Assembly (NCBI RefSeq): GCF_020386975.1
Contig: NZ_JABFNK010000005.1
Coordinates: forward strand, 186,001-250,000
DNA length: 64,000 nt
Direction of reading: 5' to 3'
Origin: Thermococcus bergensis
GTDB lineage: Archaea; Methanobacteriota_B; Thermococci; Thermococcales; Thermococcaceae
Part shown: piece by piece, positions 17,723 to 38,475 of the stretch
Numbering within the stretch: the first letter of the stretch is position 1
Layout: each line of letters starts with the position of its first letter
Program-made: the position numbers and the translations under genes
The notes under the pieces: generated by a model
Seen by the model: the letters and a program-made list of their open reading frames with translations, nothing else
What the model was told of the DNA's origin: nothing
Databases searched by the model: none

Positions 17723-18047
17723 CTAATACACCAAAGAAAATAGGATGCTGGAACTTAAATAGTTTTGGGCATTATTATATGTTAATGGTTACAAATACCC
17801 AAATTTGTCCGATAGTTAGTTTTTGAGCTGAGGTGTTATGCTAGAGAAAACTGCGTTTCAGACTTCAAGACTTTCATTGCCAACAAAAGAGTCTTCAATG
17901 AGAGCTTTATCGATTTCAAAAGCTATAGATAGAAACCTTATAGCAAAGACAATCACCTGGAGATGTTAAGTCCATTATAGACTCTCTTTAACCTCTTTTC
18001 CACAATTTTAATAAGGTTAAGATGCAAGATTTAATGGGGTGATTTTC
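17723..18047. other. Intergenic region without a recognised gene
   Basis: About 325 bases lie between msrAB and the gene at 18048. I see no credible coding frame. AT-rich stretches near 17750-17780 probably hold the msrAB promoter, and TTTTAATAAGG near 18006-18016 is a candidate TATA region for the rightward gene. Confidence 0.5.
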
Positions 18048-18860
18048 ATGCAAAGAGCCCTTGTGACTTTAACTCCCTCCGAAAGCAAGCGCTTGATTGC
18101 TAAAGCCGTTGTAGCTATGGAAGAAGTTCAAAATGCCCTCAAGAACGGTTTTGTATACATAGCAACTGGAACAACAGCCGCTTACATTGCTGAAGAAATC
18201 CTCGGAGAGAAAATTGAAAAAGAAAAATGGACAGTGGGGACGATAAGCAAGGGAAGAACGTGCGTTACCCCAAAGGCTACATGGCCAAGGCACCTCGTCC
18301 TCTACAAGGGAAAGCCCTTTGACGACCCACTTGAAGCTTTGAAAGAGATGGGGCCTGAGGATGTTTTTATAAAAGGAGGAAACGCCATAGACGTTAATTG
18401 GAATGTTGCGGTTTTTGCAGCCGCTCCAGACGGGGGAACAATCGGCAGAACTTTTGGATGGACAATAACCAAGGGAGTATTAACCATAACCCCAATCAGC
18501 CTCGAGAAGTTCACTCCAACGCCTGTGGAAGTAAGCGCAAAGCTGACGGGAATAAAGTCCTTTGACTGGGGGACAGGGCTATACTCCGCTTTAGTCCCTA
18601 TTCCACACGCAATCCCTATAACCGAAGTTGAAGCCTACGAGATACTTGCCAATGTTGATGCAATCCCAATAGCCGCTGGCGGCGCTGGAGGAGCGGAAGG
18701 AAGTGTAACGCTCGTCCTTGAGGGGGACGATGAAGACATGGAGAAGGCAAAAGAAATAACAAAAGCCGTTAAGGGAGAACCTCCCCTAGAGCCCTACACG
18801 GAGGACTGTTCTATCTGTGTCTTTGCAAAGATCTGTGGAATTGGCACCGGAGTTTTCTGA
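18048..18860 (+). CDS. Conserved archaeal protein of unknown function
   Basis: This 270-residue protein shows an alpha/beta pattern with glycine-rich turns (IATGTTAAYIAEEILG, GGNAIDVNW, AAGGAGGAEGSV). The C-terminus has three cysteines in EDCSICVFAKICGIG, which could bind a metal or Fe-S cluster. I do not recognise a family with a known role. The ATG at 18048 is chosen because GGGGTGA is correctly spaced upstream; GTG 18039 is in frame before it. It is convergent with the M24-like gene and stands alone. Confidence 0.75.
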   Translation: MQRALVTLTPSESKRLIAKAVVAMEEVQNALKNGFVYIATGTTAAYIAEEILGEKIEKEKWTVGTISKGRTCVTPKATWPRHLVLYKGKPFDDPLEALKEMGPEDVFIKGGNAIDVNWNVAVFAAAPDGGTIGRTFGWTITKGVLTITPISLEKFTPTPVEVSAKLTGIKSFDWGTGLYSALVPIPHAIPITEVEAYEILANVDAIPIAAGGAGGAEGSVTLVLEGDDEDMEKAKEITKAVKGEPPLEPYTEDCSICVFAKICGIGTGVF

Positions 18861-21430: not shown

Positions 21431-22771
21431 TCAATCCCTCCAGTCCAAAAGCCTTTTTTCACCCTCTATTTTCTTATAGGGTGCTATGTCCATTGTCATC
21501 TCAAGCGTCCCTATGTACTCGCCATGGTCGTTGAACAGCGGTACGTACTTGATGTAAACGTACTTTGGGCCGAGTCTGAGCCAGAAAGTAGCCTCTTTCT
21601 TTCTTCCCTCCTTGAAGGCCTTGAGGATTTTGTTGACGACGTAAACGCTCTTCGGCGGGTGGCAGAGCTGGACTGGCCTTCCGAGCACCGATGGTGTCCT
21701 CGTGAAAATCCTCTCTCCGGGTGAGAAGAACCTAACCCTATCGTCTTTGTCTATGAAGGTCACGTCAACAGGGAGCGCCTCAAAGATCGCCTTTAGCTCT
21801 TCTAAATTCAGATAGCCCGTTCCGAGGTCTATGTCTCCCTCACGCTTTAGCTGGGTTTTATCGAACTCTAAAGGCTGACCTCTAAGGGCCTGCTGGACTT
21901 CCTTCGGGAGGGTAAGGAGTTGTTCAACGCTCAGCTCGGGGTTTATCTCCCAGGGGTGGAGGGGCTTAACGTCCTCACCCGGATCCCACTCCGGCGGCTT
22001 TACCTTGTAGTAGCCGATTTCATCTTCCTGCATCTTTATTGCCTTCCACTCGCCCTCGCTTAAGAGAGCCTTGAGCGTTGGGTAGAAGATGTTGTTCTCC
22101 CTGAAAACCATGTCACTCAAAGCGAAGGCCGCTTCACCGGCCTTTGCCTTGAATTTCTCCACAAACTCCTCCCAGGGCATCTCCTCTCTCTTTCTCAAAA
22201 GCTCTGCAAGTTGCTTTATCATGGCCCTTATCTCGTCGTGCTTCGTCCAGAGGACTGTGGCTATGGCAGTCAGGCCTCTCCTCTCTATGTACGGGAATAT
22301 CAACATCTCCTCGCGGTTGTAGTGGGTGAAGCCAACCATTCTGAGGTTGCCCACTATCTCCTCCAGAACGCCTAGGATTTCTTTACGCATACGTTCGTCT
22401 TTTGTTGTTGCCAAAGTTCTTGCATAGAGATTGAGCATCTCAGAGTCCTTCATTATTTCCTTGTTCTCCTGGTATAGGGTCTTAAGTGGATGACCTTCAG
22501 GCAAATCTTTCTCTTCTAGTTCTTCGGTTCCCTTGACTGCTTCACGGAACAGCTCGACATGAAGGTCGCACATCTTGGCTATATCCCTGGCGGAAATTCC
22601 CTCCTTCACAAGCTCCTGCTCGATGAGGGGTATCTCAAGCGGAGAGATGTTGCTCAAAACTGCTCTAAACTCTTCCTTGAGCTTTTCAACGCTCTCTCCC
22701 TCGTGTATCCTTAGGAGGAGCTTCTTGAGCTGTTCCTTCTTGTATTCGCGGTTGTTCAAAAGTTCGGTCAT
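21431..22771 (-). CDS. DUF438-hemerythrin-PAS protein
   Basis: This 446-residue protein has three parts. An N-terminal DUF438 helical domain comes first (about 1-75). A hemerythrin-like HHE domain follows (about 85-240), with CDLHVELF, THYNREEMLIFPYIE and TKHDEIRAMI supplying His and Glu residues for a di-iron site. A PAS domain is C-terminal (about 320-440; VDVTFIDKDDRVRFFSP ... GEYIGTLEMTMDIAPYKK). Such proteins are thought to sense or handle O2 or NO. The ATG at 22771 has GGTG six bases upstream, one base after the flavodiiron stop, so the genes are translationally coupled. Confidence 0.9.
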   Translation of the reverse strand: MTELLNNREYKKEQLKKLLLRIHEGESVEKLKEEFRAVLSNISPLEIPLIEQELVKEGISARDIAKMCDLHVELFREAVKGTEELEEKDLPEGHPLKTLYQENKEIMKDSEMLNLYARTLATTKDERMRKEILGVLEEIVGNLRMVGFTHYNREEMLIFPYIERRGLTAIATVLWTKHDEIRAMIKQLAELLRKREEMPWEEFVEKFKAKAGEAAFALSDMVFRENNIFYPTLKALLSEGEWKAIKMQEDEIGYYKVKPPEWDPGEDVKPLHPWEINPELSVEQLLTLPKEVQQALRGQPLEFDKTQLKREGDIDLGTGYLNLEELKAIFEALPVDVTFIDKDDRVRFFSPGERIFTRTPSVLGRPVQLCHPPKSVYVVNKILKAFKEGRKKEATFWLRLGPKYVYIKYVPLFNDHGEYIGTLEMTMDIAPYKKIEGEKRLLDWRD

Positions 22772-22772
22772 T

Positions 22773-23948
22773 TCACTCACCCCTAACTTTTTTCGCCAAG
22801 AGGTCAGCTAAACTGTAAAGAGCTTCGTAATCCTCTTCTTTTGGTCTCGCATGAACATCAACACTCCCAAGTAGCTCAAAACTTGTCCCCTTCAGAATCT
22901 CCAGTATTGCATTTATGCTCCTCCCGTGCCACCCGTGGGAGCCTATTAAGACGGCATACTTTGCCGGAGGCCTTAGGGCCTTCACGAGGTAGGCGGCATA
23001 AACGGCGAGTGGATGAGCACTCCCGAGCACCGTAGGCGCTGCCAGCACTATACCCCTTGAGTCAACGAGGTCCTTTGCAAGCTCTCCAATGTCGGCACTT
23101 ACTAGGTTATGTACTTTTACGTCAACCCCCTTGGCCACAAGTAAATCAGCCAGCTCTTTCGCAAGCTCCCTGTTGGAGCCCCACATGCTCACGTAAGCTA
23201 CAAGCACCTTCTCCTTAGTCTCTCCCTTCACCCAGCTTTCGTAGGCTTTTAGAATCCTCTCCGGGTTTCTGTAGATGGGGCCGTGGCTTGGGGCTATCAT
23301 TTTGATCCCCAGCCCTTTGAGCTTCTCCATGGCCCTCTTAGCCATGCCCGAGAAGGGCATCATGATCTCACCGAAGTACTTCTGTGCATATTCGATTATA
23401 GAGGGAACCTCATCATCGTAAAGGCCGTGGGCAGTATGAGCACCAAAGAAGTCACATGAAAACAGCACTTTGTCTTCAACGAGATAGGTAAACATCGTCT
23501 CCGGCCAGTGAAGCCATGGAGCCTCTATAAAGCGGAGCGTTTTGCCTCCGAGGTTTACCTCATCACCGTCCTTCACGACCATTATCCTCTCATCAGGCAC
23601 ATTGTAGTATGCTTTCGCGAGCTCTTTTCCCTTTTCCGTTGTGGTGAGAAGAGCCTTCCCGTTGCGCTCCATTATGTAGGGTATTGCACCCGCGTGATCA
23701 GGTTCAGCATGGTTCATGACCACGTAGTCTATCTTCTCAAGGGGGAGTATCTCATTGACTTTTTCTTCAAGTTCCCTCTCAAAACCTGGGTTTACCGTGT
23801 CTATGAGAGCGCTCTTTTCATTACCGACCACAAGGTAAGCGTTGTAAGAGGTGCCTTCCGGGAGGGGGATCAGGGAATCGAATATCCTCCTATCCCAATC
23901 TTTAACACCGACCCAGTAAACTCCATCGAGGATTTTCACACTTTTCAT
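22773..23948 (-). CDS. Flavodiiron protein (A-type flavoprotein, FprA family), O2/NO reductase
   Basis: This 391-residue protein has an N-terminal beta-lactamase-like di-iron domain with H80-x-E82-x-D84-H85 in NHAEPDHAG, and a C-terminal flavodoxin domain starting VLVAYVSMWGSNRELAKELA. These enzymes reduce O2 to water or NO to N2O using a rubredoxin or similar donor. It is the first gene of an operon with the hemerythrin/PAS and cupin genes. A 14-bp palindrome sits just in front of it, so I infer control by the regulator at 32933. Confidence 0.92.
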   Translation of the reverse strand: MKSVKILDGVYWVGVKDWDRRIFDSLIPLPEGTSYNAYLVVGNEKSALIDTVNPGFERELEEKVNEILPLEKIDYVVMNHAEPDHAGAIPYIMERNGKALLTTTEKGKELAKAYYNVPDERIMVVKDGDEVNLGGKTLRFIEAPWLHWPETMFTYLVEDKVLFSCDFFGAHTAHGLYDDEVPSIIEYAQKYFGEIMMPFSGMAKRAMEKLKGLGIKMIAPSHGPIYRNPERILKAYESWVKGETKEKVLVAYVSMWGSNRELAKELADLLVAKGVDVKVHNLVSADIGELAKDLVDSRGIVLAAPTVLGSAHPLAVYAAYLVKALRPPAKYAVLIGSHGWHGRSINAILEILKGTSFELLGSVDVHARPKEEDYEALYSLADLLAKKVRGE

Positions 23949-23960
23949 ATTATCACCTTC

Positions 23961-23974
23961 ATGACATATGTCAT
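23961..23974. promoter_or_regulatory. Palindromic operator in front of the flavodiiron operon
   Basis: ATGACATATGTCAT is a perfect 14-bp palindrome. It lies just downstream of the minus-strand TATA element GGCTTAAAAGC (23982-23992), near the expected transcript start, which fits repression. Closely similar sites occur at 24024, 32779, 32857 and 32908. Confidence 0.7.
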
Positions 23975-24023
23975 ATCAAATGCTTTTAAGCCTTTCTGGA
24001 CAGAATTGTCCAACAAGGTTTAT

Positions 24024-24037
24024 ATGCCAAATGTCAT
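24024..24037. promoter_or_regulatory. Second operator, overlapping the DUF2249 gene TATA box
   Basis: ATGCCAAATGTCAT matches the palindrome at 23961 at 12 of 14 positions, with one half-site perfect. It overlaps the end of the rightward TATA element (GGTTTATATGC, about 24017-24027), so a bound protein would block the promoter of the gene at 24059. Confidence 0.6.
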
Positions 24038-24058: not shown

Positions 24059-24526
24059 ATGATGCTGGATGTGAGGGGGTTAAAACCTCCACAACCTGCC
24101 CTCATGATACTGGAAAACCTTGAGAGGCTCAAAATCGGGGAAACCCTCGAGGTAATTGGCGACAAACCCTTTGTAGATATAATACCCAAGCTCGAAGAGG
24201 CTGGCTATCAAGTGGAGCTGAACAAAGTGGGAGAGTTCTTCGTGCTGAAGGTCACAAAGATTGAAGGCTCAAAAGAGCTGAAAATGGAGGTTGAAGAGTG
24301 CGATGAGGAGCTGGAGGAGATAACGGAAGACACCAACGTGGCCAAGCTCCTCAAGGCATACCCCAAAGCCCTCGACATACTCGTTAAGTACGGCTTTTCA
24401 CCGCTCCAGAACCCTGTTATGAGGAAGACACTTGCGAGGACGGTAACCCTAAAGCAGGCTAAGAAGCTCATCGGCATGAGCGATGAGAAGTTCAAAGAGA
24501 TAATGGAAGAACTGAAAAGGCTGTAA
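24059..24526 (+). CDS. DUF2249 plus DUF1858 domain protein
   Basis: This 155-residue protein has a TusA/SirA-like DUF2249 domain (about 1-72; LDVRGLKPPQPALMILENLE, with the usual CP motif replaced by PP). A DUF1858 domain follows (about 92-152; NVAKLLKAYPKALDILVKYG). Proteins of this type are often found beside hemerythrin/DUF438 and hybrid-cluster genes and are thought to take part in NO or redox responses. It is divergent from the flavodiiron operon and shares its operator region. Confidence 0.85.
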   Translation: MMLDVRGLKPPQPALMILENLERLKIGETLEVIGDKPFVDIIPKLEEAGYQVELNKVGEFFVLKVTKIEGSKELKMEVEECDEELEEITEDTNVAKLLKAYPKALDILVKYGFSPLQNPVMRKTLARTVTLKQAKKLIGMSDEKFKEIMEELKRL

Positions 24527-28601: not shown

Positions 28602-29533
28602 ACCCTAGTTCCCATTAGATCGTTAGAGTTATAAGCACTTAAGTCTTTTGGTTGATTGGTGGTTGTTATGAACTTTCAGCAGGAAATCCTGATCATAAAA
28701 TCCGAAATCTATCCGATAATCAGCAAACACTACCCGAAAAACACTCACAGGGAAATAATCAGCCTCTACGACCTAATAACCTTCGCAATACTAGCACACT
28801 TGCACTTTAACGGAGTTTACAAGCACGCTTACAGAGTCCTAATCGAAGAAATGAAGCTGTTCCCCAAAATCAGGTACAACAAACTAACAGAACGCTTGAA
28901 CAGGCACGAAAAACTCCTGCTCCTAGCGCAGGAAGAATTATTCAAAAAACACGCCAGAGAATACGTTAGAATACTGGACTCAAAGCCCATTCAGACCAAG
29001 GAGTTGGCCAGAAAAAACAGGAAGGATAAGGAGGGTTCTTCAGAAGTCATCTCTGAAAAGCCCGCAGTTGGGTTTGTTCCCTCTAAAAAAAGTTTTACTA
29101 TGGGTACAAGCTGACCTGTTACTCTGATGGAAATTTGCTGGCTTTGCTGTCCGTTGATCCGGCGAATAAGCATGATGTGAGTGTTGTCAGGGAAAAGTTC
29201 TGGGTGATTGTTGAGGAGTTTTCTGGCTGTTTTCTGTTTTTGGATAAGGGTTACGTTAGTAGAGAACTTCAGGAGGAATTCCTGAAGTTTGGCGTTGTTT
29301 ACACGCCGGTGAAGCGGGAGAATCAGGTTAGTAATCTGGAGGAGAAGAAGTTTTACAAGTACTTGTCTGACTTTCGCAGGAGGATTGAGACTTTGTTTTC
29401 GAAGTTTTCTGAGTTTCTTCTGAGGCCGAGCAGGAGTGTTAGTTTGAGGGGGTTAGCTGTCAGGATTTTAGGGGCGATTCTGGCCGTGAATCTGGACAGA
29501 TTATACAACTTCACAGGTGGTGGGAACTAGGGT
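28602..29533 (+). mobile_element. IS982-like element, copy 1
   Basis: The element is 932 bp with terminal inverted repeats ACCCTAGTTCCCA / TGGGAACTAGGGT. It is flanked by the 7-bp direct repeat ACAAGTA (28595-28601 and 29534-29540). Three more copies of the same length occur at 46458, 53902 and 60753. This copy is inserted in the 3' part of the putative toxin gene. Confidence 0.93.
28668..29530 (+). CDS. IS982-like transposase, split by a -1 frameshift at an A7 run
   Basis: The first frame ends at 29114 and the second opens upstream of 29135. At TCTAAAAAAAG (about 29085-29095) a -1 shift joins ...GFVPSKK to KFYYGYKLTCYSDGNLLALL. The join unites a DDE triad: ILDS in the first part, FLDKGY and RRIETLF in the second. 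Since all four copies keep the same A7 run and both open frames, programmed frameshifting is more likely than decay. Confidence 0.85.
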
Positions 29534-30467: not shown

Positions 30468-31246
30468 GACACTGTCAGGATAAGCAGTGGGACGTTAGGT
30501 TTAAGTTTCTGATACCTCTTCAGAAAAGGGGAGAGAAATGAGGACTGAAACCATTATTTACTTACTGGTTTCAGTCTTAAAAACCTTTCGCCGGAACAAA
30601 ATCCCAGCAAAAAAGAAAACCAGGGCAATAAACCTGTACCTGCACGGACTAAGTTACAGACAGGTAGGAACAATCCTCGAAATCAGCCACACAACAGTCT
30701 GGGAAACAGTCCAAAAATTCGCGAAAGCAGTTTACCAGCCGAAAATCCTCGCAGTCAAAAAACAGAGAAACTTCATCGCAATTGACGAGACAGTGATAAA
30801 GATCAACGGCCAGAAGAGATTTCTCTGGGCTGCAATCGACGTTGAGAGCAAAGAAATCCTAGCAGTATGGATTACAAGCGTTAGGAACTGGTGGATTGCC
30901 AGGGACTTCATTCTAGTTGTTTTGAAATCCTGCGAGGGACAGCCAATTTTCCTGGTTGACAAAGGGCCGTGGTATAAATCAGCGTTTAAATCTCTCGGGC
31001 TGGATTATCTGCATGTGACTTTCGGGCCGAGGAACTGTGTTGAGCGCTGGTTTAGGACTGTTAAAGAGAGAACAAAGCGTTTCTGGAATAACTTCAGGGC
31101 TAGAGACTGGAGGAGGGTTCACAGGTTTGTTTTTCTGTTTTCATTCTGGTATAATTTTGTTAGAATTCATTCTCGGTTTGGTGGACCGCCTGGTGATGTG
31201 ACTGAATGGCTTCAGGAGGTGATACCCCAGTTATCCTGACAGTATC
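30468..31246 (+). mobile_element. IS6-family element, copy 1
   Basis: The element is 779 bp with 16-bp inverted ends GACACTGTCAGGATAA / TTATCCTGACAGTATC. It is flanked by the 8-bp target duplication GTAGAGTT (30460-30467 and 31247-31254), as usual for IS6. It resembles the IS6-type elements known from Pyrococcus furiosus. It is inserted just upstream of the putative toxin gene promoter. Confidence 0.95.
30538..31239 (+). CDS. IS6-family transposase
   Basis: This intact 233-residue DDE transposase has an N-terminal helix-turn-helix (LSYRQVGTILEISHTTVWET) and catalytic residues in FIAIDETVI, FLVDKGPWY and RNCVERWFR, followed by the K/R-rich helix typical of IS6. The second copy at 37704-38405 has an identical protein, so both are recent. 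Confidence 0.95.
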   Translation: MRTETIIYLLVSVLKTFRRNKIPAKKKTRAINLYLHGLSYRQVGTILEISHTTVWETVQKFAKAVYQPKILAVKKQRNFIAIDETVIKINGQKRFLWAAIDVESKEILAVWITSVRNWWIARDFILVVLKSCEGQPIFLVDKGPWYKSAFKSLGLDYLHVTFGPRNCVERWFRTVKERTKRFWNNFRARDWRRVHRFVFLFSFWYNFVRIHSRFGGPPGDVTEWLQEVIPQLS

Positions 31247-31389: not shown

Positions 31390-32760
31390 TCAATCCAGCT
31401 CCTCCGCGAGCGGGGCGTTCTCATCAACGCTTACGCCCCTGTTTAGCATGTCTCTGAGGTCCTTCTCTGGATCACTAATGAGCCTCAGGTCGAACTGCTT
31501 TCTCAGGACTTCAAAGACGTTCGGCGTAAGGAACTCTGGCGGCTTGGGGCCGAGGTATATGCCCTTTACTCCGAGATAGAGAAGCGAATAGAGTATCGCA
31601 ACAGCTTTCTGCTCCATCCAACTCAAAACGATGCTCACCGGCAGGGAGTTAACGTCCGTTCCGAGCTCGTTCGCTAGGGCTATTGCTATCTCAATTATGG
31701 AGTACACGTTGTTACACTGACCGAAGTCGAGAAAGCGTGGAATGCCATCTATTGTGCCGTAGTCCCTCGCGTTGTAGCGGAACTTACCGCAGGCAGCGGA
31801 AAGGATGAGTGCATCCTTTGGAATGAGCTCGGTCAGCCTCTCGTAGTAGCCCATGCCCTTGTGCGGCGTATCACACCCGCCGACGACGAAAATGTGCCTT
31901 ATCTTGCCCTCGTTGATGAGCTCAAGCAGCTTGTCCTTCATCGCGAGGACGTTGGTGTGGTGGAAGCCGGTGAGGAGCTTTCCGCCGTCGTGGGCCTTCA
32001 TCTTCGGCGTCTCAAGGGCCTTCTCTATTACCGGCTCAAAGTTGTAGTCCCCTATGTGCGGGACTCCCTCCAGGCCCGCTATTCCGGCGGTGAAGATTCT
32101 GTCGGCGTAGGCCTTCGTGGGCTGCTGGACACAGTTGCTCGTCCCCACTATAACCCCCGGGAACTCGGCGAATTCCTTCTTTTGATAGAGCCAGGAGCCG
32201 CCCCAGTTGCCGTAGAGGGCCTTGAACTTTTTGAGTTCAGGATAGGCATGAGCGGGGAACATCTCGGCGTGGGTGTAAACCTTTATTTCATCCTCAAGGC
32301 CCCTCTCCTCTATCTGCTTCAGGAGCTCGTAGAGAGCCTTGTAGCTGTGACCGGTGACGAGTATACCGTGTCCCTCGGCCGTTCCCGTGGGCACTTCGAC
32401 AGGCTCAGGCCTTCCAAAGGTCTCAACGTAGGCCTTATCCAAAAGCTTCATGGCCTCTAGGTGAACCCTTCCGTTCTCAAGGACGAGCTGGAGGAAGCGG
32501 TTCTTGTCGAAGTTGACGTTGGTCAGTGTCGAGTAGAGCGCCTCAGCTAGGAAGTGTCCTATCTCTGGGCTGTCATATCCTACTTCAAGTGCATGGTAGT
32601 AATAGGCAGAGGTGCCCTTTATGCCGTAAAGCAAGGCCTCCTGGAGTGAGTTAAGGTCGGGATCCTTCCCGCATACTCCCCTGACTGTGCACCCCCCGGC
32701 CAAACTCATGGAGCACTGGTTGCACAGCATATCAAATTCTTCGGGCACTCTTATCGCCAT
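31390..32760 (-). CDS. hcp: Hydroxylamine reductase / hybrid cluster protein
   Basis: Hcp reduces hydroxylamine and is linked to NO detoxification or S-nitrosation. The 456-residue protein has an N-terminal cluster motif C-x2-C-x7-C-x5-C (CNQCSMSLAGGCTVRGVCGK) and hybrid-cluster ligands in GTSNCVQQ, VVGGCDTP, AACGKFRYN and FGQCNN. The short form without the extra helical domain is usual in Pyrococcus and Thermococcus. I chose ATG 32760 because GGGAGGT lies just upstream; the open frame reaches 32787. It is divergent from an HTH regulator, with three operator-like palindromes between them. Confidence 0.95.
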   Translation of the reverse strand: MAIRVPEEFDMLCNQCSMSLAGGCTVRGVCGKDPDLNSLQEALLYGIKGTSAYYYHALEVGYDSPEIGHFLAEALYSTLTNVNFDKNRFLQLVLENGRVHLEAMKLLDKAYVETFGRPEPVEVPTGTAEGHGILVTGHSYKALYELLKQIEERGLEDEIKVYTHAEMFPAHAYPELKKFKALYGNWGGSWLYQKKEFAEFPGVIVGTSNCVQQPTKAYADRIFTAGIAGLEGVPHIGDYNFEPVIEKALETPKMKAHDGGKLLTGFHHTNVLAMKDKLLELINEGKIRHIFVVGGCDTPHKGMGYYERLTELIPKDALILSAACGKFRYNARDYGTIDGIPRFLDFGQCNNVYSIIEIAIALANELGTDVNSLPVSIVLSWMEQKAVAILYSLLYLGVKGIYLGPKPPEFLTPNVFEVLRKQFDLRLISDPEKDLRDMLNRGVSVDENAPLAEELD

Positions 32761-32778: not shown

Positions 32779-32792
32779 ATGGCACATGTCAT
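32779..32792. promoter_or_regulatory. Operator in the hcp leader
   Basis: ATGGCACATGTCAT matches the palindrome ATGACATATGTCAT at 12 of 14 positions. It lies between the likely hcp TATA element (minus-strand CTTTTATGC, about 32817-32826) and the hcp ribosome binding site, near the transcript start. Confidence 0.6.
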
Positions 32793-32856
32793 ACTTCGAT
32801 TATCCTTGAAATTTTTTGCATAAAAGCTTTGCGGTTTATTAACCTAAAAAGCCTTA

Positions 32857-32870
32857 ATGACGTATGTCAT
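32857..32870. promoter_or_regulatory. Central operator between hcp and its regulator
   Basis: ATGACGTATGTCAT differs from the perfect palindrome at 23961 at one position and has both half-sites intact. It lies between the two divergent core promoters and could control both. Confidence 0.65.
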
Positions 32871-32907
32871 TACAAGTTCGTGAGCCCCTTGACAGAAAAG
32901 TTTAAAT

Positions 32908-32921
32908 ATTCCGTATGTCAT
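32908..32921. promoter_or_regulatory. Operator overlapping the regulator promoter
   Basis: ATTCCGTATGTCAT has one perfect half-site and overlaps the downstream edge of the TATA element AGTTTAAATATT (about 32899-32910) of the regulator gene, which suggests autoregulation. Confidence 0.55.
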
Positions 32922-32932
32922 AAAAGGGTATC

Positions 32933-33319
32933 ATGAAGACGAACGCCTTCGATGCCGTGGCAAAATACGTATACCCTGCCCTCCGCAGGCGGCTGGTGGG
33001 GCTGTTGAGGGAGAGGGGACTTAACCAGATTCAGATAGCGGAGCTTTTACATATAACCCAGTCTGCCGTTTCGAGATACTTAGGGATGAACAGGGGCGCC
33101 CTCATAGAAGTGGAGAAGTTCCCTGACATTGACGAGAAGCTAAGGGGACTGGCGGATAGAATCATGAAAGAGAAGCCCGATGAGTATTATATCCATGGAG
33201 AACTCGTCAAAATTGCCATTGAAATGCTTGGAAAAGGCTATGTTTGCTCCTTCCACTCCAAAGTAGACCCGGAGATAGATCCAAAGCTCTGCAGGATATG
33301 TATAGAAACCTTTGGATGA
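32933..33319 (+). CDS. HTH transcriptional regulator with C-terminal cysteines (COG2522-like), probable regulator of the hcp/flavodiiron regulon
   Basis: This 128-residue protein has a helix-turn-helix at about residues 28-52 (LNQIQIAELLHITQSAVSRY) and a C-terminal tail with C105, C120 and C123 (YVCSFHSK, KLCRICIETFG), enough for a metal or Fe-S sensing site. It is divergent from hcp, and its own promoter overlaps one copy of the shared palindrome. I infer that it represses hcp, itself, the flavodiiron operon and the DUF2249 gene until NO or a related signal alters the cysteine site. Confidence 0.8.
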   Translation: MKTNAFDAVAKYVYPALRRRLVGLLRERGLNQIQIAELLHITQSAVSRYLGMNRGALIEVEKFPDIDEKLRGLADRIMKEKPDEYYIHGELVKIAIEMLGKGYVCSFHSKVDPEIDPKLCRICIETFG

Positions 33320-37696: not shown

Positions 37697-38475
37697 GATA
37701 CTGTCAGGATAACTGGGGTATCACCTCCTGAAGCCATTCAGTCACATCACCAGGCGGTCCACCAAACCGAGAATGAATTCTAACAAAATTATACCAGAAT
37801 GAAAACAGAAAAACAAACCTGTGAACCCTCCTCCAGTCTCTAGCCCTGAAGTTATTCCAGAAACGCTTTGTTCTCTCTTTAACAGTCCTAAACCAGCGCT
37901 CAACACAGTTCCTCGGCCCGAAAGTCACATGCAGATAATCCAGCCCGAGAGATTTAAACGCTGATTTATACCACGGCCCTTTGTCAACCAGGAAAATTGG
38001 CTGTCCCTCGCAGGATTTCAAAACAACTAGAATGAAGTCCCTGGCAATCCACCAGTTCCTAACGCTTGTAATCCATACTGCTAGGATTTCTTTGCTCTCA
38101 ACGTCGATTGCAGCCCAGAGAAATCTCTTCTGGCCGTTGATCTTTATCACTGTCTCGTCAATTGCGATGAAGTTTCTCTGTTTTTTGACTGCGAGGATTT
38201 TCGGCTGGTAAACTGCTTTCGCGAATTTTTGGACTGTTTCCCAGACTGTTGTGTGGCTGATTTCGAGGATTGTTCCTACCTGTCTGTAACTTAGTCCGTG
38301 CAGGTACAGGTTTATTGCCCTGGTTTTCTTTTTTGCTGGGATTTTGTTCCGGCGAAAGGTTTTTAAGACTGAAACCAGTAAGTAAATAATGGTTTCAGTC
38401 CTCATTTCTCTCCCCTTTTCTGAAGAGGTATCAGAAACTTAAACCTAACGTCCCACTGCTTATCCTGACAGTGTC
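37697..38475 (-). mobile_element. IS6-family element, copy 2
   Basis: The element is 779 bp with the same 16-bp inverted ends as copy 1 and is flanked by the 8-bp duplication AACCTTTT (37689-37696 and 38476-38483). It lies between the thermosome and TPR genes, in their shared promoter region, without breaking either coding frame. Confidence 0.95.
37704..38405 (-). CDS. IS6-family transposase
   Basis: The 233-residue protein is identical to the copy at 30538-31239 and has the DDE residues in FIAIDETVI, FLVDKGPWY and RNCVERWFR. It is intact and presumably active. Confidence 0.95.
   Translation of the reverse strand: MRTETIIYLLVSVLKTFRRNKIPAKKKTRAINLYLHGLSYRQVGTILEISHTTVWETVQKFAKAVYQPKILAVKKQRNFIAIDETVIKINGQKRFLWAAIDVESKEILAVWITSVRNWWIARDFILVVLKSCEGQPIFLVDKGPWYKSAFKSLGLDYLHVTFGPRNCVERWFRTVKERTKRFWNNFRARDWRRVHRFVFLFSFWYNFVRIHSRFGGPPGDVTEWLQEVIPQLS

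Follow-up and report, generated by a model that had tools for sequence, protein, structure and literature searches.

A small HTH protein with a conserved CxxH..CxxC tail as candidate repressor of a predicted NO/O2 defence regulon in Thermococcales and Thermoproteota

The window analysed here, a stretch of 64,000 nucleotides from Thermococcus bergensis (contig NZ_JABFNK010000005.1, positions 186,001 to 250,000), encodes a small HTH protein, hereafter the regulator, divergently from a gene for a hybrid cluster protein, hcp (NCBIfam hybrid_clust, E 2.5e-195); these and the other features of interest are collected in Table 1. The regulator ORF opens with an ATG start codon. For hcp, the start given in the table is likelier than the ORF start because of a Shine-Dalgarno sequence (our reading), and the match in the genome search skips profile positions from about 28 to 120, as in short-type Hcp proteins. 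A flavodiiron protein gene (fdp), the product of which has NCBIfam flavorubredoxin matches below the cut-offs, forms an operon with a gene for a DUF438, hemerythrin and PAS protein (DUF438 in what follows), and diverges from a gene for a TusA-like and DUF1858 protein. Two identical 233-aa transposase-like ORFs (30538-31239 and 37704-38405) flank the hcp-regulator region, and there are more pairs of similar ORFs at 28656/46877 and 40940/45548. At 18039-18860 the window encodes a 273-aa protein with a C-terminal cysteine cluster, for which Pfam gave no match and whose relatives (family F5) often adjoin the regulator.

Table 1. Genes, protein motifs and operator-like sequences in the window.
Feature	Position	Strand	Basis or remark
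Regulator gene	32933..33319	+	128 aa; HTH and C-terminal CxxH-x11-CxxC
HTH, residues ~18-50, including ITQSAVSRY	32984..33082	+	Pfam HTH_5/HTH_23 range and alignment
C105-H108-C120-C123 motif (CSFH...CRIC)	33245..33301	+	Orthologue motif count and alignment
hcp, hybrid cluster protein (hydroxylamine reductase family)	31390..32760	-	Pfam, NCBIfam; ORF starts at 32787
fdp, flavodiiron protein (ODP metallo-beta-lactamase and flavodoxin domains)	22773..23948	-	Domain scan
DUF438, hemerythrin and PAS protein, gene 2 of fdp operon	21431..22780	-	Domain scan
TusA-like and DUF1858 protein, divergent from fdp	24059..24526	+	Domain scan
Perfect palindrome ATGACGTATGTCAT between hcp and regulator	32857..32870		One of two exact genomic copies
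Operator-like ATGGCACATGTCAT, 1 mismatch, hcp leader	32779..32792		Window pattern scan
Half operator ATTCCGTATGTCAT, immediately after TATA-like box TTTAAATA (32901-32908) of regulator	32908..32921		GTCAT nearby in 63/65 distinct orthologue upstreams
Perfect palindrome ATGACATATGTCAT between fdp and TusA-DUF1858 gene	23961..23974		Other exact genomic copy
Operator-like ATGCCAAATGTCAT, 1 mismatch, directly behind TusA-DUF1858 TATA-like box	24024..24037		Window pattern scan

With E values up to 1 admitted, the only Pfam matches of the regulator are to HTH-type DNA-binding families, every one of them below its cut-off: over residues 18-50, HTH_5 (the ArsR-type winged helix, for which the fold search gave no clear match) scores 21.1 bits against a cut-off of 22, and HTH_3 scores 21.0 against 23. 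No sensor domain was found by Pfam or NCBIfam at the same threshold, nor was the Rrf2 winged helix of NsrR and IscR; the Pfam scan likewise detected neither the cNMP-binding sensor domain or Crp HTH of HcpR, nor the GAF or AAA/sigma-54 interaction domain of NorR, for which the protein is too short, nor a ThiN domain. Judged by its domains, the regulator is therefore placed outside the NsrR, HcpR and NorR families. The preliminary description, which had seen a small HTH regulator ending in C105, C120 and C123 and lacking any known bacterial sensor fold, agrees with the ORF and with these scans. An AlphaFold2 model built from 19 sequences is helical (mean pLDDT 88.2, pTM 0.84), with an N-terminal HTH, two long helices and a short tail that bears the ligands described below. 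Searches with the sequence against the PDB returned weak matches only (best E 0.036), Foldseek with the model gave no match at E ≤ 0.001, and a VIA fold search gave no Z ≥ 5 among 292 chains, many of its rows covering the HTH alone; this lack of matches does not show that the fold is new.

The tail reads C105-S-F-H108 ... C120-R-I-C123, that is, a four-ligand CxxH-x11-CxxC motif; the three cysteines had been noted before, and the fourth invariant residue, H108, had been overlooked. Full-length orthologues (rows covering residues 1 to at least 126) are present in 69 of 94 genomes of Thermococcales, and the motif is kept in all 68 of the distinct proteins that these 69 genes encode, at identities down to 57%; in an alignment of 14 sequences the four ligands are invariant columns. 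A role for the cysteines in sensing had initially been made dependent on their conservation among orthologues, and conserved they are. Broken or partial copies of the gene were seen in G010, G011, G027, G066 (where a contig end cuts it) and G082, and an additional, broken second copy in G028 and G050. Among 56 relatives outside Thermococcales, 49 have CxxH..CxxC, five have CxxC..CxxC, and two fit neither pattern as written.

The HTH part is homologous to that of ThiR, the archaeal thiamine regulator composed of HTH and ThiN; a ThiR-type paralogue in the same genome matches residues 9-120 of the regulator (E 1.1e-5). This paralogue has ThiN (PF10120) and lacks CxxH..CxxC, whereas in the regulator nothing follows the motif, and the predicted targets are different ones. 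We rejected the idea that the motif is private to regulators of the hcp/DUF438 type, since all 12 ThiR-type proteins read outside Thermococcales have it; all nine read within Thermococcales lack it, these 21 proteins being a selection from longer lists, in which ThiN was shown by Pfam for the own-genome protein and the other 20 were classed by length and similarity. The motif is for this reason probably ancestral to the HTH family and losable. It may be a structural zinc site throughout the family, or a site reused here as a redox sensor; zinc, iron or a cluster could be bound at the four ligands, and structural zinc would be as good a reading as a cluster. The CxxC..CxxC variants are compatible with structural zinc sites, which may vary in this way. 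We propose the C3H site as the sensor of the regulator only tentatively.

The sequence ATGAC-N4-GTCAT has exactly two copies in the 2.08-Mb genome, both in the window (32857 and 23961). We rejected this count as evidence, because a reversed control pattern also has two copies; only the place and the conservation of the palindromes count. Matches with up to two mismatches are mildly enriched within the window, with 31 found where 20.8 would be expected, a number attained in 2 of 100 shuffles. By our reading of the promoters, a site begins about 16 bases behind the TATA-like box of fdp and about 33 bases behind that of hcp, and a half site lies between TATA-like box and start codon in the promoters of the regulator itself and of the TusA-DUF1858 gene. 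The full palindrome stands somewhat more than 60 bases before the TATA box of the regulator, which leaves room for a second role. Two other repeats were noted beside these sites: a conserved inverted repeat GCGGTTTATTAACCTAA at 32831-32847, found upstream of hcp in many hcp-linked Thermococcales and perhaps an activator site, and a palindrome TGGACAGAATTGTCCA at 23997-24012, in the space that separates the fdp promoter from the divergent one of the TusA-DUF1858 gene.

The conservation of the operator was surveyed as the best match in the 150 bases upstream of, and 20 bases inside, each target at the loci examined. The exact operator precedes hcp at 49 of 50 loci (two of the 50 not from Thermococcales), the TusA-DUF1858 gene at 40 of 40, fdp at 11 of 12 (the exception being a match of 35% identity) and DUF438 at 40 of 52; the hcp site of G073 is degraded (8/10). 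Eleven of the 12 genomes in which DUF438 has no exact site have one at fdp, and the twelfth, G017, has DUF438 and no regulator; here the palindrome was not found before DUF438, the best match being 7/10. As for the regulator's own promoter, 63 of the 65 distinct upstream regions have GTCAT among their final 45 bases (48 of them at one position), those of G028 and G050 being the exceptions; a TATA-like box is seen in all 65, and the half site usually persists where hcp is elsewhere or absent. Across whole genomes, 22 that bear the regulator contain 68 exact sites; for 47 of these the 5' end of one of four genes (hcp, fdp, DUF438, regulator) is no more than 250 bp away, and 21 are elsewhere. Six genomes without the regulator contain six in total, of which the five read (L141-L145) look like coding sequence, least clearly L143; the sixth is in G024. 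One hcp gene with an exact operator before it, that of G018 (L063, G018:C1:1514437-1515654), has an internal TAG.

Co-inheritance was assessed in 73 genomes, that is, in the 74 good ones minus G066. A full hcp is present in 43 of 62 good genomes with an intact regulator versus none of 11 without it, and DUF438 in 60 of 62 versus one of 11 (Fisher p 1.5e-5 and 1.1e-9, respectively, both values being too small because the genomes are kin). A full hcp is missing from 19 of the 62, and DUF438 from two, G073 and G074, which possess both regulator and hcp; the hcp operator of G074 is perfect.

Exact palindromes were also seen at other genes. In G009 one (L133:1699-1712) separates a rubrerythrin/EncFtn-like gene from an apparent hydrogenase maturation protease gene, which may point to an extra member of the regulon. 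In G005 one (L129:1713-1726) separates a gene taken for sufB from a 97-aa gene for which Pfam gave no match. Sites between phosphorylase-like and cdc6-like genes in G005 (L128:1757-1770) and G007 (L131:1689-1702) led nowhere.

A search of 398 Thermoproteota genomes gave regulator matches in 316 at E 1e-10, and the surroundings were read at 50 loci, the best 30 and 20 chosen from the next ranks. At 43 of these 50, the relative of the regulator adjoins a DUF438, hcp or flavodiiron gene. Among the best 30, DUF438 lies directly upstream on the same strand at 24, hcp is divergent at four, and two have none of these (one at a contig end); among the next 20, there are ten DUF438 pairs, five divergent fdp genes and five loci with none of these neighbours, all five being CxxC..CxxC forms. 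The more distant members of the regulator's own class (L155-L157), together with L213 and L223, have no DUF438, hcp or fdp neighbour in the stretches read.

The palindromes, too, are found at these relatives. Five loci of close relatives have a divergent hcp, all with exact palindromes (G344, G326 and G192 on contigs of 1.8-2.2 Mb, L119 and L122 on short MAG contigs), and at L121, a sixth close relative, DUF438 lies behind the regulator, again with an exact palindrome. Upstream of the DUF438 pairs, TGAC-N4-GTCA occurs in 23 of 35 windows, in 21 at one place over the start codon (mononucleotide shuffles, 0.2%), and 12 of 35 are without this core; part of the conservation is coding, because the right half of the site can be a start codon followed by a serine codon. 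Dyads of the form TTGAC-N4-GTCAA have the same 4-base spacing, the group with divergent fdp has TTACAATTGTAA (a TTAC-AATT-GTAA dyad) in five of five, and at each of the five CxxC..CxxC loci without such neighbours, exact palindromes stand shortly before the regulator gene, which at three of the loci shares them with a divergent gene. With several arm forms and a constant 4-base gap, it therefore seems that the spacing is kept and the arms drift. In a tree of 80 rows (including 23 of the 68 Thermococcales proteins), the Thermococcales, the five hcp-linked loci and L121 form one clade (SH-aLRT 97), which nests in a larger one with members of DUF438 pairs (SH-aLRT 99), as calculated from few columns by a quick method. 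The archaeal family described here is marked by an HTH, CxxH..CxxC, and a link by neighbourhood or operator to DUF438, hcp or fdp, and the regulator has all of these.

These distributions bear on whether the palindromes could be bound by some other factor, to which the HTH protein is a mere neighbour. We consider this highly improbable: the half site recurs before the regulator gene itself, even without hcp next to it; palindromes accompany the Thermoproteota relatives, even more distant ones; none was found at the DUF438 gene of G017, which is without the regulator; and of the six exact matches in six regulator-less genomes, the five read have the look of coding sequence, L143 least clearly. 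The case that the regulator itself binds the palindromes is strong, as judged from these patterns, and it probably acts as a dimer, given the dyad of the palindrome. What the sequences themselves show is that the protein is conserved, where the palindromes stand and which genes follow them, that regulator and targets are inherited together, and that a second phylum has the same arrangement; a regulator with a regulon as such is very probable.

As to the direction of control, sites behind the TATA-like box would block RNA polymerase, and repression is for this reason moderately likelier than activation. In the mechanism we envisage, the repressor would bind TGAC-N4-GTCA between TATA box and gene start, or around the transcription start, and would in the resting cell shut its own gene, hcp, the operon of the flavodiiron and DUF438/hemerythrin/PAS proteins, and the TusA-DUF1858 gene. 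NO (or O2 or reactive oxygen species) would then damage or modify the C-terminal C3H metal site, the repressor would let go, and the detoxifying and repair enzymes would be made. Taken as a whole, this picture of a repressor that controls its own gene along with an NO/O2 defence regulon, and that would be released through its C3H site, appears to us moderately probable.

The sensor, though, could be another protein. If the C3H tail were structural zinc, the DUF438-hemerythrin-PAS protein, with its diiron site and PAS domain, might sense the signal and the HTH protein serve as its DNA-binding partner, in a sensor split over two proteins. The genes are same-strand neighbours in 34 of the 50 Thermoproteota loci, with a gap of -23 to +5 bases in 33 (domains scanned for two of these DUF438 proteins), DUF438 accompanies the regulator in nearly all the good Thermococcales genomes that bear it (60/62), and outside Thermococcales the ThiR-type paralogues, in which ThiN presumably does the sensing, retain the motif. 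Yet DUF438 is itself a predicted target, which is enough to account for the linkage; G073 and G074 have regulator and hcp and do without DUF438, with a degraded operator in the former and a perfect one in the latter; and the Thermococcales ThiR-type proteins, without the motif in nine of nine read, indicate that the fold does not always need it. We regard such a division of labour as unlikely.

The signal is suggested by the predicted target genes, which form a set for defence and repair against NO or O2. In bacteria, flavodiiron genes are among the targets of NorR; hcp, flavodiiron and DUF438-hemerythrin genes are all present in archaea. The operator of the regulator appears to differ from those of NsrR, HcpR and NorR. 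Bacterial hcp is governed by HcpR or NsrR, which regulate nitrogen-oxide metabolism, and predicted HcpR regulons include hemerythrin-like genes (PMC1274295); NsrR controls RIC hemerythrin-like genes (PMC9268430), a group to which the DUF438 protein is not known to belong. The predicted targets resemble those of NsrR and HcpR in hcp and the hemerythrin-type genes, and those of NorR in the flavodiiron genes; the proteins differ, the bacterial ones having Rrf2, Crp or AAA-sigma-54 domains and the archaeal regulator none of these by Pfam.

The predicted targets do not single out NO, because flavodiiron proteins and rubrerythrins also serve in O2 defence, and NO as the main signal rather than O2 is a plausible choice that falls a little short of probable. 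The same repressor and regulon might have O2 or reactive oxygen as the natural signal; the Thermococcales are anaerobes, the flavodiiron protein belongs to the predicted regulon, L224 has a rubrerythrin-like gene (below the NCBIfam cut-off) beside its DUF438-regulator pair, L218 has a similar gene, and in G009 a palindrome precedes the rubrerythrin/EncFtn-like gene. There is also an archaeal parallel. FpaA is a flavodiiron-type protein, so that one archaeal regulator of such a gene, MsvR, is already known. It is a redox regulator of methanogens, reported to repress itself and the adjacent oxidative-stress operon fpaA-rlp-rub (PMC9426492), and is a functional precedent. Against an oxygen signal, hcp is among the most consistent operator-bearing genes (49/50), and its bacterial counterparts answer to HcpR or NsrR (PMC1274295); we judge O2 or reactive oxygen as the natural signal to be somewhat unlikely. 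SurR and MsvR are archaeal redox regulators of the ArsR type; our regulator remains just below the ArsR cut-off (21.1 of 22 bits), has the C-terminal CxxH..CxxC of its own family, and has a predicted set that includes hcp, DUF438 and DUF1858 genes.

A further comparison is with IscR, a 3Cys-1His [2Fe-2S] regulator in which ligand spacing and position differ from those in the tail of our regulator. Both have three cysteines and one histidine, and the regulator differs in being without an Rrf2 domain. In seven genomes (G002, G086, G087, G088, G090, G091 and G092), members of three gene clusters come after the regulator in an iscS-tusA-iscU-like arrangement; the domains were tested in one set only, that of G087, where Pfam gave a class-V aminotransferase (NifS/IscS-like), TusA and NifU_N, and the NCBIfam cut-offs were missed. 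The site might accordingly carry a cluster and monitor iron-sulfur supply, the apo-form releasing DNA, and the palindrome after the gene read as sufB in G005 would fit. We think this very unlikely: the isc link is limited to the seven genomes, the core targets are detoxification genes, the ligand spacing is unlike that of IscR, and the motif fits zinc equally well. The most specific proposal, of a dedicated archaeal NO-sensing repressor with a 3Cys-1His metal or Fe-S site on a ThiR-type HTH, convergent with NsrR and IscR and governing a regulon in Thermococcales and Thermoproteota through TGAC-N4-GTCA, is doubtful to us. The interpretation in the preliminary description is partly borne out: the protein is a conserved archaeal regulator with invariant Cys and His, shows no domain of the bacterial families in the Pfam and NCBIfam scans, and has predicted targets of the sort that NO regulators control in bacteria; NO sensing by way of the cysteines is the conjectural part.

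In the literature searched we found no archaeal regulator of hcp or DUF438, and no mention of the family label COG2522. Now that a candidate regulator, a predicted operator resolved to single bases, a list of likely targets and a natural series of losses can be named, NO/O2 sensing in anaerobic archaea becomes testable. The DUF438-hemerythrin-PAS protein gains a regulatory setting in two phyla, and those working in the field are given a predicted archaeal defence regulon together with its exact putative operator and a dedicated candidate regulator. At three Thermoproteota loci with CxxC..CxxC relatives (L237, L239 and L244), two tandem palindromes are shared with a divergent Cys-rich protein, which in L237 is weakly HVO_A0261-like (below the cut-off), and hydrogenase-like genes are near in L239 and L244; this is perhaps another redox regulon of the same family.
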